Shown: piece after piece, positions 41,478 through 59,300 of the stretch
How the letters are laid out: each line of letters opens with the position of its first letter
Position numbering within the stretch: the stretch's first letter is position 1
Origin: Pachyseris speciosa
Taxonomy: Eukaryota; Cnidaria; Anthozoa; Scleractinia; Pachyseridae
Direction of reading: 5' to 3'
NCBI GenBank assembly: GCA_016490735.1
Contig: JAEMWC010001379.1
Location: 97,501-161,500 of the forward strand
Length of the DNA: 64,000 bases
Position numbers and translations under genes: made by a program
Notes under the pieces: generated by a model
Told to the model about the DNA's origin: nothing
Databases searched by the model: none
What the model saw: only the letters and a program-made list of their open reading frames with translations

Positions 41478-41510
41478 TCAAGGTCACCAAAATTCCCAAG
41501 GTCAAGGTCA
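41478..41510. promoter_or_regulatory. Three AAGGTCA nuclear-receptor-type half-sites in the TIR
   Basis: TCAAGGTCA (41478-41486), CCAAGGTCA (41496-41504) and TCAAGGTCA (41502-41510) lie in the same orientation. They match the extended half-site bound by monomeric receptors of the FTZ-F1/SF-1 and ERR types. Mirrored at about 60445-60477. A regulatory role is inferred. Confidence 0.4.
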
Positions 41511-41560
41511 AGGTTAAATTTTCCAAGTCTAAAATTAGGATGATGAATGAATGAAAGAAT

Positions 41561-41680
41561 TGAGTAGTATCCGTCTAGAAACGGCTGATTTCAATATTCT
41601 AAGCGATAATTAGTATATTTGAGCAGTATCTGTCGAGAAACGGCCGATTTTAACATTCTAAGCGATTATTAGTATTCAGG
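41561..41680. repeat. Two imperfect ~58 bp tandem units in the TIR
   Basis: Both units contain AGTATCyGTCkAGAAACGGC, ATTCTAAGCGAT and ATTAGTAT. Present identically in the right TIR. Such subterminal repeats may be transposase/integrase or terminal-protein recognition sites. Confidence 0.75.
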
Positions 41681-41736
41681 TAGAATTGTATTTTCAAATG
41701 TCAACTTTTTTCTTTTTAAGTACCTTTATGATATAA

Positions 41737-41763
41737 AAAACACTTAAAGAAATGTCGCTTTAG
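41737..41763 (+). promoter_or_regulatory. TIR promoter region: TATA-like box and 3-codon uORF
   Basis: An A/T box ATATAAAAAA (about 41731-41740) lies some 30 bp upstream of the start codon at 41770. A minimal upstream ORF, ATG TCG CTT TAG (41752-41763), sits between. The same arrangement, mirrored, precedes pPolB at 60185. No TCTAAC motif is present here. Confidence 0.45.
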
Positions 41764-41769
41764 GTTATT

Positions 41770-42441: not shown

Positions 42442-42916
42442 ATTTTTCATCATATTTCAGTAGGTACTTATCAATAATTGGACTATTATCAACAACATAA
42501 TCGTCTATGTTCTTCATTGTATTGTGTATGCTGGAATTATCAAAATTACCGTTTCTCATAGTTTCTTTTATTGTATTGAGAAGATGCTGGTAGCTTTGAT
42601 AAGCATATGTACAATTCTGTATTTTCATGTCAAGGTTCTTGTGTTTCATCCAACCTTGTATTAAAAGTGATACTGTACTGATGGCAACTAAACTAACACC
42701 ACCAGTCGAAATACTTGCGGCAAGACCGCCAGTTGCAAATATAATGGATGCTGAATTCCCCAGTAATTTCCATTTTTTGAACCGTTTAACAGCCTGTTTA
42801 TGAGCCCAACACTTTCTGTGATATGTGTGGTAATAGGCTTTTAATTCATTTACCTGATCTTCTGTTAATCCACCTGAAATATGGTTCCAGCTGAATATGC
42901 TTTTTCGCTCTTTCAT
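42431..42916 (-). CDS. Small hydrophobic-hairpin protein, SLATT-like topology
   Basis: 161 codons. A charged N-terminus is followed by two closely spaced hydrophobic helices at about residues 52-88 (SASIIFATGGLAAS ... LVAISTVSLLIQG). Then comes a long polar helix (YQSYQHLLNTIKETM) and a charged tail. I do not recognise the family. A helix hairpin followed by a soluble helix resembles SLATT-type membrane proteins, but that is topology only. Its start lies 9 bp after the stop of the upstream gene, and no TCTAAC box is visible, so the two may be co-transcribed. A virion or membrane-interaction role in the Polinton is conceivable but unsupported. Confidence 0.55.
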   Translation of the reverse strand: MKERKSIFSWNHISGGLTEDQVNELKAYYHTYHRKCWAHKQAVKRFKKWKLLGNSASIIFATGGLAASISTGGVSLVAISTVSLLIQGWMKHKNLDMKIQNCTYAYQSYQHLLNTIKETMRNGNFDNSSIHNTMKNIDDYVVDNSPIIDKYLLKYDEKFTV

Positions 42917-42925: not shown

Positions 42926-43345
42926 TTATATAACAATTCTGTTCAACACACAGTACCACAAACCAGACAATTGCCCACTTAGAGGTGATAACTTACTAAT
43001 TTTAGTCGTCAAGAAAGACGGTAGAGCATAAGAATATCCTCTATCAAGTGCATGTTTGACATAAAACCTACCGAAGGCATCGTGTAATATGCCATGTGTC
43101 TGTAATGTATCAATCCAACCAAGAGTATGCTCCAAAAAATGTGTTAAGCAGCCTTCACCGGGACCGATTAATCCAATGCCTATATGCTCCTGGATAATGT
43201 CTCTCACTTCAATATATTTGTTAAAATGTTTGTGATGCAAATACTGGTAAATCAACGCTGATTTCAATATCCTCTTATCAACACCAGGGTTTTTTCGTTC
43301 AGCATCTCGAGTAAACCATTTCACATATCTAATTATTTTGTTCAT
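42926..43345 (-). CDS. Polinton protein of unknown function
   Basis: 139 codons, start overlapping the stop of the upstream tail-fibre gene by 17 bp. The N-terminus is basic. The centre is rich in Gly and His (LIGPGEGCLTHFLEHTLGW, then GILHDAFGRF) and looks like a compact enzyme-like domain. The HD pair and Gly loop faintly recall phospholipase A2, but the disulphide/metal-loop pattern is absent, so I make no assignment. A weak box TCCAAC lies 12 nt before its ATG. Confidence 0.5.
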   Translation of the reverse strand: MNKIIRYVKWFTRDAERKNPGVDKRILKSALIYQYLHHKHFNKYIEVRDIIQEHIGIGLIGPGEGCLTHFLEHTLGWIDTLQTHGILHDAFGRFYVKHALDRGYSYALPSFLTTKISKLSPLSGQLSGLWYCVLNRIVI

Positions 43346-44339
43346 TTATATTATATCGTTGGATTAAAATTTGATGATGATCTGAAATTGTTTTTTCGTC
43401 TAATATAGAATCCAAGTACACACAGAAAAAAATAACACTACCGTCAAGAGGTGCGATGGAGCTAGGATCCAAATCACCAAAAGTCATTTGCCGACTACCA
43501 CTTCTGTTAGCCGCTGTAAAACTTCCAATATGTTTTTTATTCCAATAGATTTTACTTGTGTTTGTTTTTGGAGAAGATAAATTATCCCAGTGAACAGACA
43601 AGCAGTGCCAAACATTTATTTGACCCAAATCATTTACTGAATAATCTGCTATTTTTCTGAAACTTTGTATAGATGCTGCTGGACCGAAATACACACAATT
43701 TGATTGATCAACACCACTTATAACTAAATTTGAACCATTGTAATAGCTGACAAACTTATCATAACCTCCATTATCATGACCAAAAAGCCCATTTTTCCAT
43801 GGACTTCCACCTGTATTTGAATTTAATTTATAAACAATGAAGATATTAACAGCATTATTATTTAAATTGATTTGACTTATCATTCTCTGTGATCCATTAA
43901 AGTCTAAATAATAACGTCCATTATGTTTCTCAGCCTTGGTACAAACAGTGGGTCTTATGTTCAAAGTCGGTTGCGTTGCATTATTTTCTTCATTCGATAG
44001 ATCGTACAATGTTTCAACTTTTCTGTCTGCATTCATATCTAGAAAATTATTATTCGCTCTGTCGATTTGATAAGTACATTTAGAGTATAATCTGTTGAAT
44101 TCAGAAACCCACAAATCCAAAAAACTATCTCTGACAATATCTGAAACTTGTGATTTGATTACAACATGATCAGAATCATTACCTGCTTTTACATTAGTCA
44201 AATGTTTGTTTCCAAGATCATAGTGACCATCTTGTGTTAATGTAAAACCATTTCCATTATCACCTTTAGGACCAATTGCACCAGTATCGCCTTTATCACC
44301 TTTATTATCTTGATTTTGTGGAGAATTAAAAACTCCCAT
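43329..44339 (-). CDS. Tail-fibre-like protein with collagen stalk and lectin-like head (short)
   Basis: 336 codons. The N-terminus MGVFNSPQNQDN is shared with the neighbouring long fibre. A short collagen-like G-X-Y run follows (GDKGDTGAIGPKGDNG, residues 13-30), then GFTLTQDGHYDLGNKHLTNV, again shared. The C-terminal 200 residues (YYLDFNGSQRMIS, FIVYKLNSNTG, WHCLSVHWDN, SKIYWNKKHIGSFTA, FGDLDP) read as a beta-sandwich of the laminin-G/concanavalin type. The likely role is a trimeric virion appendage that binds a cell surface, by analogy with phage fibres. Promoter hexamer TCTAAA lies 11 nt upstream. Confidence 0.7.
   Translation of the reverse strand: MGVFNSPQNQDNKGDKGDTGAIGPKGDNGNGFTLTQDGHYDLGNKHLTNVKAGNDSDHVVIKSQVSDIVRDSFLDLWVSEFNRLYSKCTYQIDRANNNFLDMNADRKVETLYDLSNEENNATQPTLNIRPTVCTKAEKHNGRYYLDFNGSQRMISQINLNNNAVNIFIVYKLNSNTGGSPWKNGLFGHDNGGYDKFVSYYNGSNLVISGVDQSNCVYFGPAASIQSFRKIADYSVNDLGQINVWHCLSVHWDNLSSPKTNTSKIYWNKKHIGSFTAANRSGSRQMTFGDLDPSSIAPLDGSVIFFCVYLDSILDEKTISDHHQILIQRYNINEQNN
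43358..43363 (-). promoter_or_regulatory. Weak late-type box TCCAAC
   Basis: 12 nt before the ATG at 43345; one mismatch to TCTAAC. Confidence 0.35.
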
Positions 44340-44350
44340 TATAATATTAA

Positions 44351-44356
44351 TTTAGA
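44351..44356 (-). promoter_or_regulatory. Late-type box TCTAAA, short tail fibre
   Basis: 11 nt before the ATG at 44339, within AATCTAAA. Confidence 0.6.
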
Positions 44357-47300
44357 TTAATTCATGACCACTTCAAGTGTGAATGTTGTATCAAATGCAC
44401 CTGTATTAGGATGTGAATAATCAATGATTAAATAGCCTCTCGATAATGATTTGTTGATATTGACCGTTGTGATGTTTCTACTCATAGTATTATGTCTGTG
44501 TTCATAAATAGTTGCTGGTAATGGCAAAGGCCTACCACCTTCAGCTTTTGTCTTGAAGTAGAATATTCCGGGTTTTGTTCCTTGTAATACATACATTTTC
44601 TTAATATAAAAGTTATTGTTATGAATGACTAAAAAATCAGCGCCATTTATCAATACAGGCTTTAAAGCATTCTTATTATGTCCTTGTTCGGCTTTGACAG
44701 AGCAATTTAAATATTGTATTTGACCGATTATTCCATTCCCATTCAAATTTAGATCACCTCCTAATTTCGGACTGTAAAGAGCAAATCCACCCAAATCGAA
44801 AGCTGTTTCCATAATTACGCCTGTGACACTTGAACGAAATAGATTCAAACTATTATTATGAATTCTATAGCCATTCAGATTTAAATCACCGCCAAGTTTA
44901 GCCTCACTTATAAGAAAGCTGTTCATATTAATATTATTTAGCATTGTCAATTCACCATTTTGACCGTCAAATAAGTTTGATGAATTATTAATCAAAGCAT
45001 GTCCATTCAAATCTAAATCAGTTTGTAATTGCATTTTTTCATTCACGATTTTATAAGCTTCTGCGAAGTCGTAAACACTTGATGGAACGTCTACAGCTTC
45101 AAAATCAATACCATATGCAACACAATGAACTTTGTACTTATTTGGATAAGTTGGGTTAGCATTAATATGAATCGTACAATATAAATATTCAGGTGGTGAA
45201 CTTACTGAAGGTTTTTCAATCCATAATAAATATCTCGAATGATCTTCATTTCTGTTATCAAATTTTCTCCCACAGTTTTATGAATTGTAATTCCACCAGC
45301 TGCACTGAATGTTACACTACTAAGACTCATTCCTTCATAATCAGGAAATAGCCATTCAAGAATGAAAGTGTATTTTCCATCTTTTGTTGTGTACATATTA
45401 AATCCAATTCTAGCTCTGTAAATATGATTAGCTTCTTTATTCAAGTCTATATCAATGACCTTTTTTGAAATCAAATGTGGTGAACGAGGTAAATTGACAT
45501 ATCCATTAACTTTCAAGCCATATTCAGTACTGACTTCATCAATATCATTCATCAAATATTTGAAAGCATTCTTTGGATGAGAAGCAGATGAAATATGACT
45601 TTTTTCTAATTGATCTAAATTTACGGCATCGGTTTTATTTGTTCCTTCTTTTAAGTTAATGATTTTATGCCCTCCAAGTTTTAAGTCTGCTGCCATCGCA
45701 TTTGTTCCATTCAATAATAAAGTGTTTGCTCTGATGGTTTGTGAAGCTCGATTTAAAACTCTGAAGTTCACTGCATCAGTTTCATTCACCACGTCCGCTA
45801 AATTCGTCACTCTATTTCCACCCATCGACAAATCGCCATACATTGCAGTCGAACCGTCTCGTCGGAGAAAATATTCGTCAGTATAACGTTTTGTCGCCGC
45901 ATCGTCTGCGTTGACGGGTGGAGCAAGATTAGTAATGGCATTGTTGTTCATATTTAGATTTTGTTGTGCAACCGTATCGAGTTTGGTTTGCAACCTCTGG
46001 TCCACATAACTTTTGTTTACAGCATCTTGTGGGTTTGAGGGGTTATCCTGCAGGTTGAGGATTTTGTTTAATTTCATGTCAACATTACTGCCAAACGCAA
46101 CATGGCCGTTTTCAATTTCATAAGCTGGGTCATGAACAAAGTAAGACAAATTGGTATGATAGCCATAAGCCCCATAAACAATGATATGTGTTTTGGTGTT
46201 AGACGCAGGAGCTGTGCTGGAAAGTTCCACCTGTATTGTCGCTTGACCACCACTTCTTTTTTCTATCTGGAAAAGAATTTTGATATAACCATCAACGTGT
46301 GGAGTTCTAGTAAAAGATTTTTGAAATGACTGTCCAGCGTCACGCATGTTAATTGTTGGAAGGGTTAAACTGATTGCAGCACTTCTTGGATCTGATGGTG
46401 AGTAAAACTCAGTAACAAATGTGTACCGTCCATTTCTTAAAGATGTCACATTAAAACGAATTTTGGATGTAAAGTTGCCTTTTCGTTTAATTAAAAAAGA
46501 CAATGAGGACTTGTTTATGTGATAAGGTGATCTGTCAAAATTCTCAATTTGAAGGTTTGTTGCACCACTAACTGCAGAAGACTTGGATATGTCTTTTAAC
46601 AGAAAAGCGAATGGGTTGCGTTGAGCTCCAGATGCTGATAAAACAAGGTCATCAACATACTTTTTGTTGGCAGAATCTTTATCAGAGTTTGGAGATCCAA
46701 CATTTGTTATTTTATTGTCACCCATGTCAAGATCACCAGTCATTGCAACACTTCCATCTTTTTTAAGAAATGGAGACAAATCGACGTTGGATGAATGATC
46801 GTCAACATATTTCTTGTTGGCAGCATCTTTGTCATCAGTTGGAGTTGTGAGATCAGTTATTTTATTATCACCCATGTTCAAATCAGAAGTCATTGCAACG
46901 CTTCCATCTTTTTTCACAAAGTTAGAATTAACATATGCTATATTCGCTTTATTATTCGACAGATATGTGACAGCATCATCAACGTATTTTTTATTTGTAC
47001 AGTCTTGTTGTAATATAGGGTGTGCAACATTGACTATTCTAAAAAAACTCATTTTAAGCTCACGATCAAATACAATTCTTCCTTCTTCTATTTCAAAAGC
47101 TGGGTCGTGAATATGTGATAAAATGATATTAGAAAATCCATAAACACCATAAACTATGACGTAATGTTTTTTATTATTTTGTAAATATGGTGAAATCAAC
47201 AATAACTCCATTGATGTGGAACCATGACTTGTTTTTTCAAGGAAGAATATTCTCTTAAGATAACCATCAACAAGATGAGTCTTTGGAAATGCTCTTTTTA

Positions 47301-47904
47301 TTGAATCCTTTCTTTCAATTAAATTAGATGACAGATTGTCGTCATCGACTGTTGCATTATTTGGGCTACCATCAGTATAAAACTCAACAACTAAAGTGTA
47401 CTTTGAAACTTCCAATTGTGTCAGATCAAAACGAAGAACAGTTGTAAAACCAGCAGTAGGAATAACAAAAGACAAGGCTATTTTATTAAATGAGTAAGGG
47501 CTTTTGTCAAAATCTTCCAATTGCAGATTATTCGCATTTCTAAGAATAGTTGTTTTTGATATATCTTCAAGAAGAAATTTAAATGGATTAACACGTGTTC
47601 CTTCAATTGATAAAACAGCATCATTAACATATCCCAAGTTAGCAGAATCATAATGATTTACTGGATCACCAACATCTGTCAAACGTTTATTTTCAATGTC
47701 ATAATTACCATCTTGTGTTAATCTAAATCCATCACCTTTGGGACCAACAGCTCCAGTAGCTCCTTGTGGACCAATTGCACCTGTATTACCTTTTGGACCT
47801 CTATCACCTTTTTCACCTTTGGGACCAATTGGACCAACTGGGCCTCTTTCACCAGTACCAGTTTCTGTTTTATCTTGATTTATTTGAGCATTAAAAACTC
47901 CCAT
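44357..47904 (-). CDS. Long tail-fibre-like protein, collagen N-terminus, three head modules, one frame break
   Basis: The first frame (47904-45202, 900 codons) starts [11 protein letters not shown]. It has about 14 G-X-Y triplets (17-59), then the LTQDG...LTDV block, then NPFKFL-type beta modules at about 105-300, 430-630 and 770-890. These alternate with phage-fibre trimerisation repeats ([12 protein letters not shown] ... [20 protein letters not shown]). It closes at 45202, but reading continues in another frame from about 45269 through 44357, adding GGDLNLNG repeats and a beta-rich tip. The annotated 229-codon piece at 45046-44357 is this 3' part. The break is a single-base shift next to short homopolymers. 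The promoter TCTAAC is 11 nt before the ATG. Role: host-attachment fibre, inferred from architecture. Confidence 0.75.
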
Positions 47905-47915
47905 TATATCATCTA

Positions 47916-47921
47916 GTTAGA
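47916..47921 (-). promoter_or_regulatory. Late-type box TCTAAC, long tail fibre
   Basis: 11 nt before the ATG at 47904. Confidence 0.65.
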
Positions 47922-47938
47922 TTATTTTTTTAATTTTA

Positions 47939-48577
47939 TTAAACAGCACCATAAAAATTTCTCTTGATTGTTTTCATCGGCTTGTCAACATAACAGAAGG
48001 AATATGGTTTTTTGGTTGCTTCAATGTATTTCTTCTTGTCGATTCCAAGCTCCTGTGCAATCAAGTTCCTTTCTCTTGAGGATGGGAAATCATAAAGGCA
48101 GAAGTGACTGCAATTGAGTCTGATTGATTTTGGGCATCCATAGAATGATTGTGTGAGATATATGACTGAACAGTTCTTGTGTCTCCCCTGAATGAAATAG
48201 CTGATTATCTGATCTTGTTTCTTGTCAGTCACGAAATCATCAAAAACAACCAATCGCTGCAAATCTGTGTCTTTTATTTGTTCAACTGGCAATATCTCTT
48301 CTTGACTGCAAACCAAGGCAGGATATCCAATGTGACTGCTTATTTCATCCATTACTTTCCGAAGATATTTGTACTTGTCTTGATCTAAATTTTTTGCATA
48401 AAGATGTATCTGATCATAATAAACCAATGGTTCCATAATCAGATGCATGAACAATGTTGTCTTTCCAGATCCAGAATTACCAGCCAATAACATTCTAAAT
48501 GTATCTTTTGGCATATACGGATACAACTGTCTGAATGAATTCTTTAAACCCTGAATATCATAATTAGGGATTTCCAT
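47939..48577 (-). CDS. DNA-packaging ATPase (A32/FtsK-HerA type)
   Basis: 212 codons, the usual length in Polintons. Walker A GNSGSGKTT lies at residues 33-41 and Walker B LVVFDD at about 109-114. Further conserved patches are the sensor-like VIYLTQS and the GRHKNCSV stretch. By family knowledge it translocates the element's DNA into preformed capsids. It is transcribed divergently from the gene starting at 48614; the two promoter boxes (TCTAAA and TCTAAC) lie in the 36 bp between the start codons. No frame break. Confidence 0.9.
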   Translation of the reverse strand: MEIPNYDIQGLKNSFRQLYPYMPKDTFRMLLAGNSGSGKTTLFMHLIMEPLVYYDQIHLYAKNLDQDKYKYLRKVMDEISSHIGYPALVCSQEEILPVEQIKDTDLQRLVVFDDFVTDKKQDQIISYFIQGRHKNCSVIYLTQSFYGCPKSIRLNCSHFCLYDFPSSRERNLIAQELGIDKKKYIEATKKPYSFCYVDKPMKTIKRNFYGAV

Positions 48578-48587
48578 ATGTAAATAG

Positions 48588-48593
48588 TTTAGA
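48588..48593 (-). promoter_or_regulatory. Late-type box TCTAAA, packaging ATPase
   Basis: 10 nt before the ATG at 48577; lies back-to-back with the plus-strand box 4 bp away. Confidence 0.65.
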
Positions 48594-48597
48594 TTAG

Positions 48598-48603
48598 TCT
48601 AAC
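48598..48603 (+). promoter_or_regulatory. Late-type box TCTAAC, coiled-coil protein
   Basis: 10 nt before the ATG at 48614; followed by ACAATTGTATATG. Confidence 0.7.
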
Positions 48604-48613
48604 ACAATTGTAT

Positions 48614-49420
48614 ATGGATATAGAACGAATGAAAAGGCTTCTAAAAAGTGGAATTGAAGCCGGAAACAAAACAAGAGAAGTTCGTGATGTTATCAAGACT
48701 TATGAATACAGAAAACAGGATGCTTATGATACAACATCAGAATTGCTGAAACCCTCTATTGATGTCCAGAAGAGTGTGAAAGAAAGTGTCGACGAAAAAC
48801 AGGATGAAGTCATTGAACAGTTGAAAAAAAATCAACAGGCTTTAACACAAGGACTTGATGATGTTATTGAAGCTAATCGCGGAGCAATTACAATGGGAAC
48901 GGAACTTCCTAGAGCCATTGAAGCATCTGAAAAAGAGGATCGGACACCCAACATATTATCGATCGATAACTATTTCGATAAAGATGACAGAATTATATTA
49001 AAAAATAACAGGCTTTTGAAACCAAGCGATTTGACTCAAGTCGCCCCACAAAAACTTGTCGAGGAAAGGGTGAAATCTGCAGAAATTGCCAAGGATATGG
49101 GAAGAAGAAAAAAAAAATCAATGAGTGCAGAAGAAAATGAATCTCATAAAAGAGAAATACAAACTTTGAAGAAATACAGAGAAACGATTGATGATGTATT
49201 AGCTTCTTACAAATACAAAACAGGGAAAGGAATGGGTTCAAGGGGCGCATTTTTGGGTGACATGCTTTCACGTTTACAGTTGCTTGGTGGATCTATTTCA
49301 GCCGGCAACAATAGCATGGGTGTAAGAAATGAATTCACAAATATATTGCATACATTGAACAGACTGGGAATCCTGAAAACCGGTGAGTTGAATAAAATAA
49401 TGATGAAATATCTAATGTAA
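48614..49420 (+). CDS. Conserved Polinton coiled-coil protein
   Basis: 268 codons from the ATG at 48614. A TTG six bases upstream is less likely because the TCTAAC box is exactly 10 nt from this ATG. Residues 1-130 are heptad-rich and charged (VQKSVKESVDEKQDEVIEQL). A basic linker (GRRKKKSMS) precedes a compact C-terminal domain with LLGGSISAGNNSMGVRNEFT. This type is repeatedly found beside the ATPase and minor capsid genes in Polintons; its function is not established and a structural or scaffolding role is a guess. Its stop overlaps the promoter box of the next gene. Confidence 0.6.
   Translation: MDIERMKRLLKSGIEAGNKTREVRDVIKTYEYRKQDAYDTTSELLKPSIDVQKSVKESVDEKQDEVIEQLKKNQQALTQGLDDVIEANRGAITMGTELPRAIEASEKEDRTPNILSIDNYFDKDDRIILKNNRLLKPSDLTQVAPQKLVEERVKSAEIAKDMGRRKKKSMSAEENESHKREIQTLKKYRETIDDVLASYKYKTGKGMGSRGAFLGDMLSRLQLLGGSISAGNNSMGVRNEFTNILHTLNRLGILKTGELNKIMMKYLM
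49411..49416 (+). promoter_or_regulatory. Late-type box TCTAAT, minor capsid
   Basis: 10 nt before the ATG at 49427; embedded in the last codons of the upstream gene. Confidence 0.6.
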
Positions 49421-49426
49421 AAGTAT

Positions 49427-50211
49427 ATGACAGAAATTTCATTACGATTCAACAGTAAAAACAGAGACAAAATTGGTGTCAGCAAGAGTCATGATTTTGA
49501 AAAAAGATTCAATTCACCTCTTAAATTAACGAATGATTTAAAATATGAAATGGCTGTGAATGTCATCAATATGACATACAGTTGGTACAATATCAGAGAT
49601 ATTTTTGGGAATAATCAAATGAAATACAGTGTTGATGGAGGTGCAAACTGGTTCACAGTGACATTCGTCAATGGTATGTATTCATATGACGATATCGATG
49701 ATTACATTCATAAATTCATGGAAAAAAAAAACCAAAGACTTAATCCAGATGAAACAGATGAAAAAAAATACAAGTATGGTATTAATATAACTTTCGTTTT
49801 GTCAACATATCGCATTTTGATTGAACTCAATGAAAATTATCGTGTGGATCTCAGAAATAATGATTTCAGAAAACTTATCGGTTTCGATTCAAAATTGATT
49901 GAAGCTGATGAATATGGAACATATTTACCTGATATCACAAGAAGTGTAGATGAAATTTATATCAATTGTGATTTGGTGACAGATAGCATTGTTGATGGAA
50001 ATAGCACAATACAATCGCAGTTATACCAGTCACAAATCTCGTTAGAAGTTTACCTTTCACTTACAAACCTCGTTTTCTTTCATGGAATCCTGTCTCAACA
50101 CATACAATCAGCTCAATACGCTTTTATGTCACAGACTCTTCTAGAGCTCCAGTCGATTTAAATGGGATAGATTGGTATATTGAGTTATTCTTGCGAGGTG
50201 TGGAATTATAA
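49427..50211 (+). CDS. Minor capsid protein (penton-type), one frame break
   Basis: The frame from 49427 (LRFNSKNRDKIG, then MTYSWYNIRD, then a beta-rich body) is collinear with Polinton minor capsid proteins, the single-jelly-roll penton homologue. From about 50014 the similarity moves to another frame that ends at 50211, while the original frame closes at 50161 with unrelated sequence. A one-base change near 50014-50022 explains this. The last third of the jelly roll, including VDLNGIDWY, is therefore out of frame as assembled. Box TCTAAT at 49411-49416, 10 nt before the ATG, overlaps the end of the upstream gene. Role: capsid vertex protein. Confidence 0.8.
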
Positions 50212-50224
50212 AACCTAATAGTAT

Positions 50225-50461
50225 ATGAAACGGTTTGAGTTTAAAAAATATGAACAACATGGTGAAGGTATTGTGACTGATATGATCAAAACAGCTGGAA
50301 AAAAAGCAGCAACAACAATTGGTGAACATGCTGGCAAAAAAGCTGGCGACAAAATCATAGAACTTTTGAAAAAGAGAAAAAGTGGAACTGAGAGTGCGAG
50401 CCAGACTGGTGGTTTAATCAAAAGAAAGAGAGGCCGACCGCGTAAAATAACTTTTATCTAA
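50225..50461 (+). CDS. Small basic AT-hook protein, candidate core/DNA-binding protein
   Basis: 78 codons, strongly basic. The centre is Lys/Ala/Gly helical (KKAATTIGEHAGKKAGDK) and the C-terminus has an AT-hook core RKRGRPRK. It lies between minor and major capsid genes, as small core-protein genes do in adenovirus-like elements. I infer genome condensation inside the virion. Start context TATATG with a weak CCTAAT box 7 nt upstream. Confidence 0.55.
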   Translation: MKRFEFKKYEQHGEGIVTDMIKTAGKKAATTIGEHAGKKAGDKIIELLKKRKSGTESASQTGGLIKRKRGRPRKITFI

Positions 50462-50462
50462 C
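50457..50462 (+). promoter_or_regulatory. Late-type box TCTAAC, major capsid
   Basis: 10 nt before the ATG at 50473; followed by ACAATAATATATG, almost the same as at 48598. Confidence 0.7.
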
Positions 50463-50472
50463 ACAATAATAT

Positions 50473-51756
50473 ATGTCAAACTATCGTGACTCAAAATATA
50501 TCGAAAGATATGAAGATGTAGTGTTCGAACTAGAGACAGCACTTAATACTGTAGTAGCAAACGATGCTCATCAGAGAAAAACAGGTTACCGTTTCGTTGT
50601 TGATAACAGTGGAGAGACTACACCATTTGACTGGTATAATGCCCGTTTTAATGTTATTTTCAAAGAAAATAAGCTTGCAGATGGAGGTAACATTGCTGGT
50701 GCAGATCGAAATGGTATTGTTAATTCAGCTCACGCTCTTATTAACACCATTAATGTAAAAATGAATGGAATCGATGTTTATGAATGCCGTGATGCAAACC
50801 AAGCCACAAATATTAAGTCATTGCTTGAGTATTCACAGGGTTATGCTGTAAGTCAGGGAACCAATGAGTTCTTCTATCTTGACACCAGCAGAGGTGCTGA
50901 AAACAGAGTGGCACAAGCTGCTTATAACAAAGGATTCTCAGATCGTAAAGCTTTGCTTAATGATGGTGGTGAAGTAAATGCAGAGATAGCATTGAACAGA
51001 TACGGTTTTTTCAAGAGCTTTTGGGATGAACTCATGCCTAACTCAAAAATAGAGGTGAAATTAACACTTGAGAGTGATGCCAATTTGATTTGGCAAGCTA
51101 CTGATGATTGCCGTGTGGTACTAACTAAATTCCAGCTAATAGTTCCTCGCATTGTTTTTAATTCTGCGGGAAAGTCCTTATACATGAGCAAGTATCTTGA
51201 CAACAGAAAGTGGACTTACATGAGAGAACTGATTGAGAGAGGCAATTCAACAAGACAGCAGACAGCCAATTTCCGTATTTCCACAGGAATAAACAAACCC
51301 AGGCATGTCTTTGTATTCATCATCAATGATGCCAATGATGCATCTCAGACAGCCAATAAATTTCTCTATAACACATTCTCAGTTGCAAATAACCGAACTT
51401 TGACTGATTGTTATCTTGAAGTTGGCAACGGAAATGATTATCCAGAGCTTCGTTATAAACCATCAACAGAACCAACAAGAGTATTTAGAGATGTTTTGAA
51501 ATATGTTCAAGCTGTAAACGATTTCAGTGAAAGTACCCTTCTCAACAGGGGCAATTTCGGTACAATATTCCCTTTTGTTTATTTCGATCTGACAAAACAG
51601 AAACAGGATATCAAAGATGGAATGACAAAACTGACTTTCAAATACACTTTGAGTGCTGCAACAAATGCTGATTACAGTGTGTATGCACTGGTCCTCTATG
51701 AGCAGGATATTGAGATGAGAAAGACTGATGGAAAATTAATTCTGAGATCAATGTAA
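50473..51756 (+). CDS. Major capsid protein
   Basis: 427 intact codons, the largest capsid-cluster gene. The beta-rich sequence includes TPFDWYNARFNV near the N-terminus, WDELMPNSKIEVKLTLE mid-way, and the C-terminal block YALVLYEQDIEMRKTDGKL. I know this block as characteristic of Polinton/adintovirus-type capsid proteins with a double jelly-roll fold. Position after the minor capsid and before the pVI-like and protease genes is the canonical order. The box TCTAAC at 50457-50462 is 10 nt from the ATG. Slightly short for the family, but with no frame damage. Confidence 0.8.
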   Translation: MSNYRDSKYIERYEDVVFELETALNTVVANDAHQRKTGYRFVVDNSGETTPFDWYNARFNVIFKENKLADGGNIAGADRNGIVNSAHALINTINVKMNGIDVYECRDANQATNIKSLLEYSQGYAVSQGTNEFFYLDTSRGAENRVAQAAYNKGFSDRKALLNDGGEVNAEIALNRYGFFKSFWDELMPNSKIEVKLTLESDANLIWQATDDCRVVLTKFQLIVPRIVFNSAGKSLYMSKYLDNRKWTYMRELIERGNSTRQQTANFRISTGINKPRHVFVFIINDANDASQTANKFLYNTFSVANNRTLTDCYLEVGNGNDYPELRYKPSTEPTRVFRDVLKYVQAVNDFSESTLLNRGNFGTIFPFVYFDLTKQKQDIKDGMTKLTFKYTLSAATNADYSVYALVLYEQDIEMRKTDGKLILRSM

Positions 51757-51814
51757 ATTAAATAAATTAAATGATTGTTTGTATTAAATACAATTTAGTA
51801 TAAACATATATTAT

Positions 51815-52665
51815 ATGACTACTTATCATCCTCATGGAGTAAGACTTTCAAACAGTCAGAAGCAAAGGCTTGCAAAAGCTATACAAACAAATTCACCGGT
51901 AACATTGAGACTCGCACATGGAGATCTCACTGGAGGTGATCAAATGATGTTGACAAAAACACAGATAAAAAAATTAGCCAAATCACAGAGAAATGGAACA
52001 GGTGCTGATGTAAAGATATCCAAAGCACAGATCAGAAAATCAGTCAAGAAGGAGGTTCTCTTTGGTCCAGTCTTTTTTCACTTGGAACAAGACTATTGCC
52101 TTATGCAGGTAAAGCAGTAGCTAAAGCGGCTCCAGCATTGGCTACAGGTGCTCTTTCTTCATTAGCAAGTCTTGGCATTGATAAACTATTTGGAAAGAAA
52201 CAAAAAGGAGGATTTCTTATTCCTAATGCCAATTTATCCCAATTATTTAATGTAGGAAATTTATTGAATACGAGACAGATGGCTGATGTTATCCAAAAAA
52301 TGCAGTATGGTGGAGACGTTGTTATAAAACCAACAAAAGCGCAGACTGGAAAGGGTATTGGAACAATACTCGCCAGTATTGGAATTCCTTTGGCTATAGA
52401 AGCAATCAGAAAATTAACTGGAAAAGGTTTGCATGTTGAAAGCAGCCGTCCAAGACGGTCAATACCTGTTCATGTTCCAGATGACATTGTACCCAGAAAG
52501 AAAGGTGGGAAACATGCTATGATTCCATGGCAATCTCCTCCTGTTTTTGGTACATGGAATAACCCAATCGGTTATGGAATGAAAAAAAAAACCAAAGGAA
52601 AAGGACTTCTACTGGGCAAAAACAGTCCATTCAATTCAATCCCCATACTAGGAACCATTTTGTAA
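51815..52665 (+). CDS. pVI/core-like virion protein, one frame break
   Basis: The first part (51815 onward) has LSNSQKQRLAKAIQTN, VTLRLAHGDL, LTKTQIKKLAK and ISKAQIRKSVK, a pattern common in Polinton virion proteins. The frame then shifts near 52046-52053. The second frame continues through an Ala-rich amphipathic stretch to a basic C-terminus (GYGMKKKTKGKGLLLGKNSPFNSIPILGTIL) and stops at 52665. Each partial frame runs through the junction into nonsense, so a single-base indel is the simplest reading. The amphipathic segment recalls membrane-lytic pVI-type proteins, but that is inference. Confidence 0.65.
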
Positions 52666-53120
52666 ACAAACCCTTATCCAACTTTAATTTAATCAATTGG
52701 GTTAAACAACTTGGAATAAAACATTTTAGAGGAGTATTTTCAAGAGACAATCTTCCTAGACAAATAAAAAAGAATGAATGTGGGATAGTCAATCTTGATT
52801 CCAAAATTGGACCTGGTACTCACTGGGTATGTTATAGGAATTTCAAAAATGATAAATACTGTGAATACTTCGACTCTTTCGGTTTAATGATGCCAACAGA
52901 AGTACAGAAATACATGGCTGCAAGCGGTAAACAACTTGAATACTCTGGTGATGAGATACAAGAAAGGGAATCAGTATTATGTGGATATTGGTGTTTGTAC
53001 TATCTTCTTGAGAGACAAAAAGGCAGCTCCATTCTTAATACAATACATAATGCTGAATTTGATCCAACAGACACAAGAGTCAATCACAGATTCATAATCA
53101 ATTATTTCAAAAATATGTAA
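52662..53120 (+). CDS. Adenain-like cysteine protease, start codon not found
   Basis: Open from about 52568 and clearly homologous from about 52674. Active-site surroundings are visible: GTHWVCY (His), EYFDSFG (acidic residue) and LCGYWCLYYL (nucleophile Cys). These are the hallmarks of the adenovirus-type C5 proteases that mature Polinton capsids. No in-frame ATG precedes the domain; the first is at 52887, after the catalytic His. Either the start codon has mutated (a GTA lies at the expected place), a non-AUG start is used, or it is translated by coupling to the overlapping upstream gene. Confidence 0.75.
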   Translation, partial: VNKPLSNFNLINWVKQLGIKHFRGVFSRDNLPRQIKKNECGIVNLDSKIGPGTHWVCYRNFKNDKYCEYFDSFGLMMPTEVQKYMAASGKQLEYSGDEIQERESVLCGYWCLYYLLERQKGSSILNTIHNAEFDPTDTRVNHRFIINYFKNM

Positions 53121-53129
53121 TGTATATGT

Positions 53130-53408
53130 ATGTCTGTTAAGTTAAACAAAAACAGTGGGATAATAAAAGTCGGCAAATATTACGCGTGCTATAATGAGAA
53201 AGAATACTTTGATCCATCAGGACAGGAGATACCTGCTCAAATGGAGAAAAAGAATTGTTTCAATGAATCAATGCGTATTAGAGATCCGTTATTGAGTAAA
53301 CAATGGTGTTTGTACTACCTTTTAGAACGTCAGGAAGGTACTATGATATTAACAATATTATTTGATGATAAAAGATTTAATAAATTTCTATCTAACATAA
53401 AAGTATGA
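53130..53408 (+). pseudogene. Degenerate partial duplicate of the protease C-terminus
   Basis: 92 codons. The middle (KQWCLYYLLERQEGTMIL) mirrors CGYWCLYYLLERQKGSSIL of the protease just upstream. The catalytic Cys-Gly is replaced and the His/acidic region is absent. The N-terminal 55 residues (IIKVGKYYACYNEKEYFDPSG) are unrelated or too diverged to place. Confidence 0.5.
53391..53396 (+). promoter_or_regulatory. Late-type box TCTAAC, 51-codon ORF
   Basis: 8 nt before the ATG at 53405. Confidence 0.5.
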
Positions 53409-53560
53409 TAGAATTCGAAATAATTGATGATGTTAATATATTTGTTATAATAGTTGTCAATAGATTGATTGGTTTGCGAGTTGTAATCAAATGCACTTTG
53501 GATAATATAACAGTATTCTATGACAAACTTAGTGGAAATGTATGTCGATTTAACTACTAG
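53405..53560 (+). CDS. 51-codon ORF with a late-type promoter box
   Basis: ATG at 53405, stop at 53560, with TCTAAC (53391-53396) 8 nt upstream. The N-terminal half is hydrophobic (VNIFVIIVVNRLIGLRVVI), suggesting a single membrane helix. No family recognised. The promoter box is the main reason to take it seriously. Confidence 0.4.
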   Translation: MIEFEIIDDVNIFVIIVVNRLIGLRVVIKCTLDNITVFYDKLSGNVCRFNY

Positions 53561-53572
53561 ACAAAGAAAATA

Positions 53573-53578
53573 TCTAAC
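53573..53578 (+). promoter_or_regulatory. Late-type box TCTAAC, mini zinc ribbon
   Basis: 11 nt before the ATG at 53590. Confidence 0.65.
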
Positions 53579-53589
53579 CAATATGTATA

Positions 53590-53748
53590 ATGGTAAAATC
53601 ATATTGTGTTAAACAGAAGAAAGTCACTGAATGTGTACCAGGAAGTGAAAGATATCAGAAGACCAAAAATGGTCGAACTGTTATGAAATGTACTTGTGCT
53701 GAATGTGGAATCACAAAGACTAAATTTGTCAGAAATCGGGGAAACTAA
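53590..53748 (+). CDS. Small zinc-binding protein (DUF5679-like)
   Basis: 52 codons: MVKSYCVKQKKVTECVPG, TKNGRTVMKCTCAECG, then TKTKFVRN. The layout YCVKC-K-K-T, TKNGR, CxxCG, TKxxxF is that of the DUF5679 mini zinc ribbon found in Polintons and giant viruses. Here the second Cys of the first pair is Gln, so the zinc site may be incomplete. TCTAAC at 53573-53578, 11 nt upstream of the ATG, supports expression. Function unknown. Confidence 0.6.
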   Translation: MVKSYCVKQKKVTECVPGSERYQKTKNGRTVMKCTCAECGITKTKFVRNRGN

Positions 53749-53794
53749 TTAGCCCGTCTGAAGGGGCGGGCATACTAGATTCAGCTGCAGATAT

Positions 53795-54430
53795 GGCGCT
53801 AACAGGATTCTTAGAACATGGAGTCCCTTATTTAGCAAAGAAAGGTGTTGAAATGGGAGATATTATGCTTCAGAAGCAATGAGAAATCCAAAGCTGCAAA
53901 AGAAATTAATTGACAAAGGACTTTCCCTCGCAAAGCCTGCAATCACAAAGGTTGGGTCAGAAGCTTTGAAACAACTCTCAACAAAAGTGAGACCAAATAT
54001 TCGTTACAAAACAGATATTAAAGGATTAGATTATGGTGGTGCTATTGACATTCATAAGGTTATTGGCAAGCTTCCTAAACCGAAAAGTGGATGGACACCC
54101 GGAAAGTATAAATACATGGGACCTTATAATCCCCTCGATAAACAGTTAGAGTATGATAAAAATACAGGTGAGGTCTTGAAATGGAATGTACAACCTTATA
54201 ACAAAGTGGATGAAATAGCAGCTTACCATGATATTTGTTATGATATGGGAAAGAATAAAGGTGAATGTGATAGAACAATGGTCGAGTCACTAGATCAAAT
54301 ACCATATGGTGAGATGCCAAAATGGGGTCAAACAGCTAGATTCTTAATCGACAAAAAACAGAAACTTGGTCTTGGTGTTTCAAAAAACGGAAAAAGCCGT
54401 CGAGTGAAGAAAACTGGCAAGAAAAACTAG
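53795..54430 (+). CDS. Phospholipase A2-domain protein (parvovirus VP1u type), one frame break
   Basis: Translation most likely begins at 53795 (MALTGFLEHGVPYLAKKG). The frame shifts at a GGG run (53855-53857); the rest reads from before 53879 to 54430. Catalytic features: the calcium loop YMGPYNPLD and the active-site DEIAAYHDICYD, with His and Asp adjacent. These match the secreted-type PLA2 domain used by parvoviruses, and by some Polintons and adintoviruses, to breach endosomal membranes. The C-terminus is basic (GKSRRVKKTGKKN). A one-base loss in the G run is the simplest explanation of the break. No TCTAAC box is seen upstream. Confidence 0.75.
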
Positions 54431-55350
54431 CTGATGAATTACATGCACCCATAAAACGAAATTTCACTCGGCGGCGTGTGATTGTAAATAAAATTGATGA
54501 AATATGGGCAAGTGATCTAGTTGAAATGCAACAGTTCAGTAAATGGAATAAAGGTTATCGATATCTTCTTATGGTTATTGATGTCTTCAGCAAATATGGT
54601 TGGATTGTCCCATTGAAGGATAAGAAAGGTGAATCTGTCACTGAAGCATTCAAATCAATATTCAAGGAAGGTAGAAAACCACAGTATTTATGGGTCGACA
54701 AGGGAAAAGAGTTTTACAACAAACACTTGAAGGACTTGCTAGAGAAACATAGTGTACAGATGTACTCAACTGAGAATGAAGAGAAATCATCAGTAGTTGA
54801 AAGATGGAATAGGACAATTAAATCCAAAATGTGGAAGAAGTTCACTGTTCAAGGTAATACACAGTATTTAGACATGTTACAAAAATTAGTGAAACAGTAT
54901 AACAACACAAAACATTCAAGCACAAAGATGACACCCGTTGAAGCATCTGATAAGAGGAATGAAGGAACTGTTTACTTCAATTTGTATGGTGATATGGAGC
55001 CATTAAAACAAAAACTAAAATTTAAAATAGGTGATAAGGTCCGAATATCCAAGTATAAACGGATTGTGTTCGACAAGGGCTATACACCAAATTGGACAGA
55101 AGAAGTGTTTATAGTTGATAAAATCCAGTACACTAATCCAATCACTTACAAACTAAAAGATCACAACGATGAAGAAATTGAAGGGAGTTTTTATGAACCT
55201 GAGTTATTAAAGGCTAAACAGGATGTATTCCGTATTGATAAAGTCATTCGCAGAGATTACAAGAAGAAACAAGCTTTGGTGAAGTGGAAGGGATATAGTG
55301 ATGACTTTAACAGTTGGATACCGTTCAAGGATTTAAAGAAAATTATCTAA
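54340..55350 (+). CDS. Integrase (DDE, rve) with C-terminal chromodomain
   Basis: The open frame begins at 54340, inside the 3' end of the PLA2 gene, and has no ATG before 54526. The homologous region starts at about 54400 (EENWQEKLADELH, APIKRNF). Core residues are Asp in WASDLVEM, Asp in LWVDKGKEF and Glu in SSVVERWNR, 33 residues after the second Asp. A conserved QYNNTKHSS follows. Residues near the end (FRIDKVIRRDYKKKQALVKWKGY ... SWIPFKDL) form a chromodomain that may target chromatin. Role: strand transfer of the element with a 6 bp stagger. Translation may need a frameshift from the PLA2 gene, an unseen intron, or a non-AUG start. Confidence 0.85.
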   Translation: MLNRQKTETWSWCFKKRKKPSSEENWQEKLADELHAPIKRNFTRRRVIVNKIDEIWASDLVEMQQFSKWNKGYRYLLMVIDVFSKYGWIVPLKDKKGESVTEAFKSIFKEGRKPQYLWVDKGKEFYNKHLKDLLEKHSVQMYSTENEEKSSVVERWNRTIKSKMWKKFTVQGNTQYLDMLQKLVKQYNNTKHSSTKMTPVEASDKRNEGTVYFNLYGDMEPLKQKLKFKIGDKVRISKYKRIVFDKGYTPNWTEEVFIVDKIQYTNPITYKLKDHNDEEIEGSFYEPELLKAKQDVFRIDKVIRRDYKKKQALVKWKGYSDDFNSWIPFKDLKKII

Positions 55351-55351
55351 C
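55346..55351 (+). promoter_or_regulatory. Late-type box TCTAAC, BRO-N nuclease
   Basis: 10 nt before the ATG at 55362; overlaps the stop codon of the integrase. Confidence 0.65.
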
Positions 55352-55361
55352 ATATGTGTAG

Positions 55362-56234
55362 ATGCAAAAATATTCCTACGATAATAAAGAATTAGACGTT
55401 TCAATAGATTGTTATCTCGATAATAAAAACGATATATGGTTCAGAGGAAGAGACATTGCTATTATTCTCGACTATAAAAATCCACAAAAAGCAATCAAGG
55501 ATCATGTTTCATCTGATGATAGAATCTTAAGAGACCACAAAATCAGCATAAATTCACGATGTAACAAAACGTTACCTCATGCTGAGGCCACTGATTCACG
55601 ATGTAACAAAACGTTACCTCATGCTGAGGCCACTGATTCACGATGTAACAAAACGTTACCTCGTGCTGAGACCATTGAAAAAACTTTCAAATGTTTTTTT
55701 ATAAATGAATCAGGATTTTATTCACTAATACTGTCCTCTAAAAAACAGGAAGCAGCAAAATTTAAACATTGGGTCACATCAAAAGTATTACCATCAATCA
55801 GAAAACAAGGTTATTACAAGCAGTTCAATGACAGAAGCAATAACATGATATTAATTGAAAGTGAAAATGATTTGCATTGTAAGATTGTTTCATTCATCAG
55901 AAAGAAATATGAAGACGCATTAATGATAGCCGGTTTAGGTGAAAATCAAATAAGCTCAAATATAAGAATCAGAAGTTATAACAAAGGATATATGTCTGGA
56001 CAATGCGATTTGATGTTAATGAATCCCACCAGAAAATACAATGCTCTTTGTCTTGAATTCAAAAGTCCCACTGGTGTATACCAAGTGTCGGAAAAACAAA
56101 CAAATATGAAGCAAATGTATGAGAAAAACAAGTGCAAATACATTATGAGCAATTGTTTTGAAGATTTAATTTTTGAAATAACCAAACACATGGAAGAAAG
56201 CAAATTGTATTTATCACGTATAAGAAAAGACTAA
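55362..56234 (+). CDS. BRO-N domain protein with PD-(D/E)XK-type nuclease C-terminus
   Basis: 290 codons. A BRO-N DNA-binding domain spans about 10-64 and 107-150 (DIWFRGRDIAIILDY; FINESGFYSLILSSKKQEA, FKHWVTSKVLPSIRKQGYY). It is interrupted at residues 65-106 by three copies of a 14-residue repeat. The C-terminal part has an Asp in CDLML and an E-x-K in CLEFKSPTG, a VRR-Nuc/PD-(D/E)XK-like arrangement, followed by KQMYEKNKCKYIMSN. BRO proteins occur in baculoviruses, phages and many mobile elements; fusion to a nuclease suggests DNA processing or repair. TCTAAC at 55346-55351 is 10 nt from the ATG. Intact. Confidence 0.7.
   Translation: MQKYSYDNKELDVSIDCYLDNKNDIWFRGRDIAIILDYKNPQKAIKDHVSSDDRILRDHKISINSRCNKTLPHAEATDSRCNKTLPHAEATDSRCNKTLPRAETIEKTFKCFFINESGFYSLILSSKKQEAAKFKHWVTSKVLPSIRKQGYYKQFNDRSNNMILIESENDLHCKIVSFIRKKYEDALMIAGLGENQISSNIRIRSYNKGYMSGQCDLMLMNPTRKYNALCLEFKSPTGVYQVSEKQTNMKQMYEKNKCKYIMSNCFEDLIFEITKHMEESKLYLSRIRKD
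55554..55679 (+). repeat. Three in-frame 42 bp tandem repeats within the BRO-N gene
   Basis: Each unit encodes SRCNKTLPHAEATD (with slight variation in the third). Each DNA unit holds two small inverted repeats, GTAAC-aaaac-GTTAC and CCTCA-tgc-TGAGG. Confidence 0.9.
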
Positions 56235-56240
56235 CTTTTA

Positions 56241-56246
56241 TCTAAC
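56241..56246 (+). promoter_or_regulatory. Orphan late-type box TCTAAC
   Basis: Followed by CTATATATG, but the frame there closes after 14 codons, before the convergent pPolB stop. Probably the relic of a lost gene. Confidence 0.45.
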
Positions 56247-56309
56247 CTATATATGTTAGAGAGGTCAGTATTATACTGTATTTTGCTATTTTGGTAGCCA
56301 AGAATATTT

Positions 56310-59300
56310 TTATTCCTGACTATTTATTTTGTGATGGCCATAAGCATAACTGTTGATTCCGTCTTTTGATAAATATCTTTTGTCATCGAAGCAGCTGAGT
56401 GATACTTTGTTGATTTCATAGCTTCCTAATTGATGATTTTCACTTCTGATTGTTTTCATTTTATGATACATTTGTTTATCATTGAATAGAGTGTCTTTAT
56501 AATTTTCATGCTTGATTTCATTTTTGATTGTGTTCTTTTTGATTCCTTTTGCTGTTTTTCCTCCTTTCTGATCATCTTTAATATAGCTATACATCTTTGA
56601 TCTCAGCCCTACGAATTCACATATTGGGACTCCAGCAGCTTCATCTTTCATTTTGCCAATTACTTTCTTATTGGTCTTATCGGAGAATGGCGAGCTTTCA
56701 GGATAGTCACTGTTATCGAATTTATCTTTATCATTCCAGAAATCCCTATAGACATCTTCTGCTTCAATTTCATATGTCAAACTGTCTGTGTCAGTGAAGA
56801 GCAGCTTAGCCTTATTACCATACTTTTGTTTAATGTAGTTGTAATGGAAATCATACATAAGTGTCTTACTAAGATCCAGAATACACATTCCTACATATGC
56901 CGGCCTGTTTAGAGTTAGTGTTTCTTTGATCTTATGCACTGCTACCAGATTTTCATTGAATATCTTACTGCTAACATAAGTTGGTTTACTGGCTAATTTC
57001 AATAGCTTCTTCTCATCAGTCACCAATCTGACATCTACTCTCTTTCTGAGATTTTCCATAGTTTTGCCGAATACTGAGTTATTCATCAACTTGAAGAAAT
57101 CTTTCTCAAAAGCATTCTTGGCATTAGTTCTTTTCTGTGTATTGAAATCAATGTACTGTCTCAGCCAAGGTGATTGTTTGAACTCTAGCACTCTGTGGAT
57201 TTTTGTTACCTTCAAACCCAAGTCTGTGTATAATTGGAGGTTCCTGTAATGCAGAACATACTTCTCTTTGTTGCTTAATGTTGGCATCAGTTTATGTACC
57301 AAACCAGTCGATATATTGTATTTCTCTGCTATGTCTTTACAGTAATCTGAAAGCATGTCTCCAGTTACTTTCACCTTCTCTGGTCCAAGCGGGTAATCAT
57401 TATGCAGATCATGCAACTCCTGGGGGTATTCCAGATCAACTTCCAGAATCAAACCCTTATTGCTGTCTTCTTTGTATTTAGCCAGGTTGAGATTATTCAT
57501 TTTATTCTCAGTCATCCATCTGAATCCGCCTGTTGGAAGGTATTGACTCATTGCCCAACCGTATAGATTGTTTGCATCAAGATACATGATGTACTTTGAG
57601 GGCGCCTTCTCATCATACTTCTTCATGTATTTATTATTAGCTTTACCGTAACGATTGGCAATATAGCTGATACCACCTCTCATACCCTTTTCAATGAACT
57701 GGAACATATCAATGTCAGTCATCAATTCCAGTTTGATATCAGTCATCTTCAGCATAGCATCCCATGACAAACCAGGAGATGTGAAGTAGTGACACGGATC
57801 CAGTTTGTAGTACTCGAGACATGTTCTTCTGAAGTTCTCAAATACATCAGCCAACAGGAGTACATCTGTTTTAAGGTACAGATCATGATACTCGCCCATG
57901 TTTTTCAAAGAGAATGTTTCCCACACTGTCTGAGCATGTGTATAGTCTTCATCTGATATATGCGTATCACTCAGTATGCTATAGAATTCTTCTTTTGAGG
58001 GTAACTTCTGATTGAATTTATCGAAACTGTCCATGTAGTCGTATGGATAAACACCTTTCTGTGCTATCAGATTAAGATCTTTTCCCTTAAACTCTTGTGA
58101 GGTGAATTTTAAGGCTTCTTTTGGTAGATTGCCTACAAGTTTTTCCAAACTAGAGCTCATGAACTGGAAACTATCAAGAAATGTTAGGTGATTGCCAAGC
58201 ATGAAAGCCATATACTTCTCCATGTTATTTGGGATAGCATTGATGTTCATTTGGCAGACTTCACCTTTTTTATTTGTGAATGTGTGTTTCTTGACAATAG
58301 CTCCAATCTCCTGCATAATAAAATGACTGTCATAACCTCTTAGATTGTGAAATATAACAGGTATCTTCACTTCTTCTGGATTGACTCTAAGTTTCAGGTT
58401 ACATTCTTGATGAGCTGATCCTCTATACTGGCCAGTAATGTGACAGTGATCTCGTACTCTGATATCCTTTTCAGTGTATTTTTTATCACAAATGTGACAT
58501 TCTTTGGCTTTTTGGAATTTCTCTTCATCATCCTCAGTCATTTTCAATGGTTTATTGAATTCTTTAACAATCTTCTTGCAATATTTAACTTCCTCTAACA
58601 TAGCTTCCATGAATTTGTATACAGCCTTTTCACCCCTGTATATTTGTATTGGCTTGCTGTATTTATCATCATAACAACAAACAACCTTGTAACCATATCC
58701 ACAATCAGTATGCTTCTGATAGGCTTCAGTGTATGATTTATCATTGTTGGGTTGGCAACCGTGTATTTTCTCAGTTAAAGCCTCAAAATCAGCATAGATA
58801 ACAAATGGTACTTGCTGTTGTTTATGGAAGTTGATGAATTTTAGAATATTATTGTCTTTGTTTGGCATCTTTATTGCTTGTGTGCCATTAACCAGTATGC
58901 AGTTGTCCACATGATCATTCAAGACTCTTTCTGAGCTGAAACATTGTAGACAGTGCATGCAAAAGTGTTTTCTTTCATTATGCTTTGTTTTGTTGCGCAT
59001 GAATCTGTTGAAATCTTTGATTAAAACGTAGTGTTTGTTTTCATTTTCTGTAATCAATAGAAGATTCAAACAGTCTTCATACTTTTCTTTTGAAACGTAA
59101 ATTGGATATGGTTGTTTGTTTTCATAACCAAATACATTGATGTTGATCTCATTTTGTTTTTCTATCTTATTATACTGTTTAGTTGTGACTGGAAATTCAA
59201 CCCCCGAATAATCTAACGTATTAATATGTTGTCTATCAGATTTTTTTATTCTCTGAGGGTTCTTCTCTTGTGGATTCAAGTGCCTGATATGACACCATCT

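Follow-up and report, generated by a model that had tools for sequence, protein, structure and literature searches.

A start-proximal TCTAA box and a VLTF3-like gene in a Polinton of Pachyseris speciosa

The window analyzed here is a stretch of 64,000 nucleotides from Pachyseris speciosa (GenBank assembly GCA_016490735.1, contig JAEMWC010001379.1, positions 97,501 to 161,500), and it contains a Polinton of 19,255 bp whose gene starts are the subject of this report. The Polinton extends from AGTAGT (41351) to ACTACT (60605) and is flanked on both sides by AATATC. The arms of its terminal inverted repeats (TIRs) are 100% complementary over 41381-41886/60069-60574 and 98% over 41346-41385/60571-60610. 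The assignment to the Polinton/Maverick group is based on the AGTAGT/ACTACT-type TIR ends with a 6-bp target-site duplication (TSD), a retroviral-type integrase (rve E 1.9e-8 and Chromo E 1.4e-7, both over cut-off) and an A32-type packaging ATPase (PF04665, over cut-off; Table 1). The end motif matches the one given for Polintons in PMC8097293.

The gene order begins with the TIR-started gene at 41770+, followed by two accessory open reading frames (ORFs; 42916- and 43345-), two fibre-like ORFs and the ATPase. It continues with ORF 48614+, ORF 49427+, the capsid ORF 50473+, a PX-type ORF and a protease stretch, and ends with DUF5679/PLA2, integrase, BRO-N and a pPolB ORF which starts within the right TIR. 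The names mCP (minor capsid), PX and PY and the protease call follow Polinton usage. ORF 49427-50161 is presumably the mCP gene from its place in the element; it has no match in a Pfam scan. The capsid ORF matches the DJR-like family PF21738 under the cut-off of 27 (E 0.00038, 20.2 bits). ORF 43329-44339 also has no match in the Pfam scan and is called fibre-like from DNA repeats in common with the fibre gene (families D2 and D3). The DUF5679 match is under cut-off (E 0.00067), PLA2 is matched at E 3e-8 by ORF 53879-54430, and the BRO ORF matches Bro-N at E 2.9e-23. The pPolB ORF (1291 aa) shows polymerase-like motifs by eye, while no polymerase family is matched at E <= 0.01.

An exact TCTAA[C/A/T] box precedes nine gene starts in the Polinton (44339-, 47904-, 48577-, 48614+, 49427+, 50473+, 53405+, 53590+ and 55362+). 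The spacer between box and ATG is 8 nt in one case, 10 nt in five and 11 nt in three. A first-pass annotation of the sequence had listed ten starts with TCTAA-type hexamers. The tenth, ORF 43345, has TCCAAC instead, located 12 nt ahead of the ATG; this stretch reads T[C/G/A]CAAC in most relatives listed, TCTAA is present in one of the four distinct relatives counted, and ORF 43345 is therefore placed outside the box class. The number of independent boxed starts is also lower than nine, since starts 44339 and 47904 are duplicates of each other (repeat family D3) and ORF 53405 has a length of just 51 aa. The 28 distinct box-plus-spacer strings are 85% A+T, against 66% ahead of all Polinton ATGs, which bears out the earlier remark that the DNA between box and ATG is AT-rich. 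The divergent intergenic region between the ATPase and ORF 48614 measures 36 bp and consists of two opposed boxes 4 bp apart with their AT-rich spacers. In all three tandem genes inspected, the box shares sequence with the ORF ahead of it, each time in a different codon phase, and in one of them the TAA of the box is the stop codon of that ORF. The box had been assigned to the structural genes. Structural-type genes do carry it, but the BRO and DUF5679/PLA2 genes also belong to the class, so it is not strictly structural.

Table 1. Boxes, genes and ends of the Polinton (positions in the window)
Feature	Position	Strand	Remark
Left 6-bp TSD AATATC	41345..41350	.	precedes AGTAGT, recurs after ACTACT
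Left TIR, begins AGTAGT	41351..41886	+	includes VLTF3-like gene start and its upstream region
VLTF3-like gene, putative TFIIB-type zinc ribbon, TIR-driven, no box	41770..42441	+	no TCTA in 60 nt upstream
Accessory ORF, no box	42431..42916	-	weak SLATT-like match; box in 0/6 relatives
Accessory ORF, near-hexamer TCCAAC at 43358-43363	42926..43345	-	outside box class
Box TCTAAA, 11 nt before ATG of ORF 43329-44339	44351..44356	-	ORF fibre-like
Box TCTAAC, 11 nt before ATG of fibre ORF 45202-47904	47916..47921	-	Pfam tail-fibre, stalk and collagen matches
Box TCTAAA, 10 nt before ATG of packaging ATPase 47939-48577	48588..48593	-	PF04665 E 1.3e-16
Box TCTAAC, 10 nt before ATG of ORF 48614-49420	48598..48603	+	back to back with ATPase box
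Box TCTAAT, 10 nt before ATG of ORF 49427-50161	49411..49416	+	within end of upstream ORF
Box TCTAAC, 10 nt before ATG of major capsid ORF 50473-51756	50457..50462	+	DJR-like PF21738
Box TCTAAC, 8 nt before ATG of 51-aa ORF at 53405	53391..53396	+	exact sequence
Box TCTAAC, 11 nt before ATG 53590 of DUF5679/PLA2 gene	53573..53578	+	gene interrupted in window copy
Slippery heptamer A AAA AAC in PLA2 ORF 53879-54430	54382..54388	+	-1 frame opens into integrase frame (ORF 54526-55350)
Box TCTAAC, 10 nt before ATG of BRO-N ORF 55362-56234	55346..55351	+	overlaps integrase ORF stop codon
pPolB gene, starts within right TIR, no box	56310..60185	-	no TCTA in 60 nt upstream
Right TIR, ends ACTACT	60069..60605	-	TSD AATATC at 60606-60611

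The box is a real feature of the Polinton. When ORFs of at least 100 aa were taken without regard to the motif, 7 of the 16 had TCTAA at -18..-14 (binomial p 7e-11), against 8/850 other ATGs within the Polinton and 9/1424 ATGs outside of it. A set of 5000 dinucleotide shuffles gave at most two such starts. TCTAA also ranks first (count 7) in a blind scan of all 5-mers over all position windows, where the best count in a shuffle was 7 in 1/500. The nine ORFs of this set which lack the box are the two TIR genes, ORFs 42916, 43345 and 51815, and those with the ATGs 45034, 52279, 53879 and 54526, which look internal to interrupted or frameshifted genes. After the start set was cleaned on inspection, the box was present in 8/13 starts. 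The absence of the box from the two TIR-driven genes agrees with the first-pass annotation, and none of the eight distinct TIR-type VLTF3 upstream regions shown for diverged loci has it.

The TIR gene opposite pPolB (41770-42441) is, by profile matching, VLTF3-like and thus assigned to a family of late transcription factors. PF04947 is matched over the cut-off (25 bits) by six C-terminal pieces of 96-116 aa (E 1.2e-6 to 1.3e-5, 25.4-28.8 bits) and is missed with the full-length window protein and with pieces of 126, 146 and 154 aa. The whole window protein matches only Zn_Ribbon_TF, under cut-off (E 0.0044). PF04947 matches 14 of the 15 aligned members of the family, and there are 84 PF04947-type matches genome-wide, with the window copy not included. 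The first-pass annotation had called the gene just a zinc-ribbon factor, and its proposal of two gene classes is strengthened by this identification. As to an A2L-type zinc ribbon, PF08792 matches 1/15 members (E 0.0075) and PF08271 4/15, with bits, where shown, under cut-off. The full VLTF3-like ORFs seen are 187-227 aa long. A structure model from the single sequence is poor (pLDDT 36.8). The model from the 15-sequence alignment has a usable C-terminal domain (mean pLDDT 64.2 and pTM 0.47 overall), and its zinc-ribbon part stays low. The modelled domain resembles cyclin repeat 1 of TFIIB/Brf1 at a sequence identity of 6-13%, with no sequence-level match in PDB; unlike TFIIB/Brf1, the VLTF3-like protein has only one cyclin repeat. 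The VLTF3-like factor is a candidate reader of the box.

The genome also has a second VLTF3 group (L029-L035; C743, C283, C435, C234, C402, C10) with short or interrupted frames. It is much nearer to the canonical profile (47.7 to 81.5 bits) and in at least one case lies near genes of a deep Polinton lineage (C743: ATPase 43-44%, integrase 66%). In another subfamily, MSCNS (L038, L044, L055), the box near-variants TCTCA and TTTCA are found 18-19 nt before the ATG of the VLTF3-like gene, possibly as a weak or autoregulated promoter of the factor's own gene.

Conservation was followed among copies within this one genome (984 Mb, 2368 contigs), because no relative was confirmed in a viral contig collection scanned with the major capsid protein (MCP), pPolB, ATPase, an 81-aa pPolB piece and the VLTF3-like alignment, or found in phage and plasmid collections scanned with pPolB. 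MCP is matched at least 98 times in the genome, at 94-100% identity and with no stop in 97 of the 98 that were scored, and the ATPase at least 150 times (148/150 with no stop; the ATPase profile also matches in 2/14 control genomes). The expansion of the Polinton in this genome is therefore very large and apparently young. The 27 near copies show no variant in the mCP box and one variant count at each of the last two letters of the capsid box; these loci are too similar to be informative.

The diverged set consisted of 14 pieces (L059-L072) around 11 of the 84 VLTF3 matches, picked for unusual frames, and of the match loci L029-L058. Comparisons were start-anchored and required an ATG and at least 30 aa aligned at 40% identity or more, and duplicate 40-nt upstream regions were dropped. 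TCTAA at -18..-14 is kept in 24 of the 31 box-class starts of these loci (fibreB 3/3, fibreA 1/1, ATPase 2/3, ORF 48614 2/3, mCP 4/4, MCP 5/6, PX 3/5 and DUF5679 4/6). The box-free accessory genes gave 0/6 for ORF 42916 and 1/4 for ORF 43345. Pairwise identity, with window and relatives pooled, is higher in the box than at -40..-24 for mCP (1.00 vs 0.63), MCP (0.94 vs 0.33) and ATPase (1.00 vs 0.61). When the eight box-class genes are pooled, the identity is 0.70 at -23..-18, 0.74 in the box and 0.68 in the spacer, and drops to 0.43 at -40..-24 and to 0.40 beyond that. The start-proximal stretch as a whole is thus better kept than its flank, with the box as its best part by a small margin. In the box columns identity is low for fibreA, DUF5679, 48614 and PX, partly through variants and shifted spacing.

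The box also precedes 17 of 20 further ATPase starts (one of the 17 with a broken frame), which were chosen from the 150 mostly for differing frame length. The starts lacking it are L086, which is of the same type, and L085 and L087, which are of a deeper type; a third deep lineage (C743) has no box at its ATPase start either. The box is conserved in related elements of this genome. Since one copy each of three deeper Polinton lineages in the same genome has an ATPase start without the box, the box looks like a property of one Polinton lineage, and the suggestion that it marks a regulatory system of metazoan Polintons in general finds no support in these deeper lineages.

At the sequence level the Polinton has two gene classes, because a shared start-proximal element is kept in diverged copies and is missing from the TIR genes. 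The division into an early (TIR) and a late (TCTAAC) class stands to this extent, and the labels themselves are presumptive. The sequence TATCTAAC, 10-11 nt before the ATG, probably serves this Polinton lineage as a core promoter element of late type, to which a TIR-early VLTF3-like factor would bring RNA polymerase II (Pol II). The early class would comprise the two TIR-started genes, pPolB and the VLTF3-like factor (putative TFIIB-type zinc ribbon, one cyclin-like domain), expressed from a TIR promoter. The VLTF3-like protein may then bind the box and recruit the host Pol II; transcription would begin in the AT-rich DNA that separates box and ATG, and leaders would be very short. The capsid, ATPase, fibre, PLA2 and BRO genes would be switched on from their boxes in this manner. 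Transcription is probably carried out by the host polymerase, since no RNA polymerase family was matched among the 19 Polinton ORFs scanned. A more specific form of the proposal is tentative and somewhat harder to credit: a TIR-driven, VLTF3-family mini-TFIIB could replace the host TFIIB at Pol II and redirect it to the TCTAAC boxes ahead of the virion genes, which would make a self-contained early-to-late switch.

The main rival explanation is that the box is a core promoter element read with Pol II by host general factors alone, similar to a TATA box or initiator, and that the VLTF3-like protein acts elsewhere or as a general activator. The lack of an RNA polymerase match also fits this explanation, as do a TATAA-type sequence at about the box position in PX and ORF 42916 of the window and the TATATAAA found ahead of the ATPase start in one deep lineage. 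However, the box is not enriched ahead of ATGs outside the Polinton, and it is missing from the TIR genes, which are necessarily read first by the host. A canonical TATA box is rejected on spacing, because it would place the start 25-30 nt downstream and inside the ORF. A purely host-read element is therefore rather unlikely, although it deserves more weight than the other alternatives.

A post-transcriptional signal is improbable. The box could in principle be the branch point of a cis- or trans-splicing event whose acceptor lies immediately ahead of the ATG, or it could form a context for the start of translation. The consensus of a branch point is CTAAY, which CTAAC resembles, and the distance to the ATG is fixed. 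On the other hand, an acceptor AG is missing from the spacer in 20 of the 28 distinct strings and stands directly before the ATG in just 1/28, so the splice acceptor reading is rejected; spacers of 10-11 nt are also short for the distance from branch point to acceptor, and a translation context should also appear on the TIR genes. Chance combined with shared descent, in which the box marks nothing and persists because the copies are young, could draw on the near identity of the boxes in near copies, the duplication behind two of the nine starts and the conservation of the whole -23..-1 stretch rather than of the box by itself, but it is very improbable, since chance is rejected by the shuffle and other-ATG controls, the box recurs ahead of unrelated genes on both strands, and it is retained in MCP, ATPase and mCP while the flanks drift to 0.33-0.63 identity.

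The proposed late-type element has partial counterparts in known viruses. According to PMC8547959, PMC5294985 and PMC6723459, the CroV late promoter and its copy in mavirus/EMALE type 4 have a TCTA core in AT-rich surroundings. The Polinton box likewise has a TCTA core in an AT-rich context upstream of genes, a likeness that rests on four letters. In mavirus the motif is reported ahead of every gene, and the giant virus is believed to be what reads it. In contrast, the Polinton box is absent from the VLTF3-like gene, pPolB, 42916 and 43345, the motif is longer (TATCTAA[C/A/T], at -16/-17), and the Polinton encodes a VLTF3-like gene of its own. This gene resembles VLTF3 (poxvirus A2L-like, PF04947) in its profile match over the curated cut-off and in a putative zinc ribbon ahead of a conserved helical domain, but differs from known VLTF3 genes in its location in the TIR of an animal Polinton. 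In BFVD the model has its best fold match in a Tetraselmis viridis virus S1 protein (prob 0.97, E 0.028), and TsV_18 of the algal TsV-N1 was annotated as 'VLTF3 like PF04947' in 2015 (PMC4517135). Unlike the Polinton, these two are free algal viruses (Polinton-like), and no promoter is described for them in the literature surveyed. In Megavirus chilensis the cluster of the VLTF3-like factor precedes the morphogenesis cluster (PMC11464507), an order similar to the one proposed here, with the factor first and the virion genes later.

A start-proximal box kept on virion genes together with a VLTF3-like factor is evidence of retained viral-type temporal gene control, which bears on whether animal Polintons live as viruses. 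VLTF3 has been used as a signature of the Nucleocytoviricota; the present gene is relevant to where VLTF3 came from and hints at a way in which a factor of this kind could operate together with a host polymerase. If the mini-TFIIB form of the proposal is true, giant-virus late-transcription logic would operate in an animal nucleus without a viral RNA polymerase, and separate factor/box pairs would have evolved in different Polinton lineages of one genome. The titles and abstract openings surveyed mention neither a promoter motif nor VLTF3 in animal Polintons.

The window also holds a candidate programmed -1 frameshift, which from its sequence may produce a PLA2-integrase fusion. The A AAA AAC heptamer is of the canonical -1 type and in the correct phase of the PLA2 frame. 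The N-terminal part of the integrase is open in the -1 frame with no ATG seen for it, and the integrase ATG 54526 looks internal. The heptamer is present in 5/5 relatives matching this stretch, even in L065 at 76% DNA identity.

Several minor features complete the locus. An inverted pair of boxes, TCTAAC-N8-GTTAGA, lies at 56241..56260, in the gap where the BRO and pPolB genes converge; 24/2000 letter shuffles produce a pair of this kind (N6-10). The BRO ORF holds three tandem repeats of a 42-bp unit (14 codons) at 55552-55677. ORF 42431-42916 matches SLATT_1 under cut-off (E 0.0013); SLATT is a membrane-effector domain from nucleotide-signal defence. A rhodopsin-type GPCR ORF is located 1.1 kb to the right of the Polinton and fits an animal host. 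To the left of the Polinton, nested inverted repeats at 34581-37406 (arms of 273, 166, 158 and 65 nt, 91-96%) are perhaps another mobile element.
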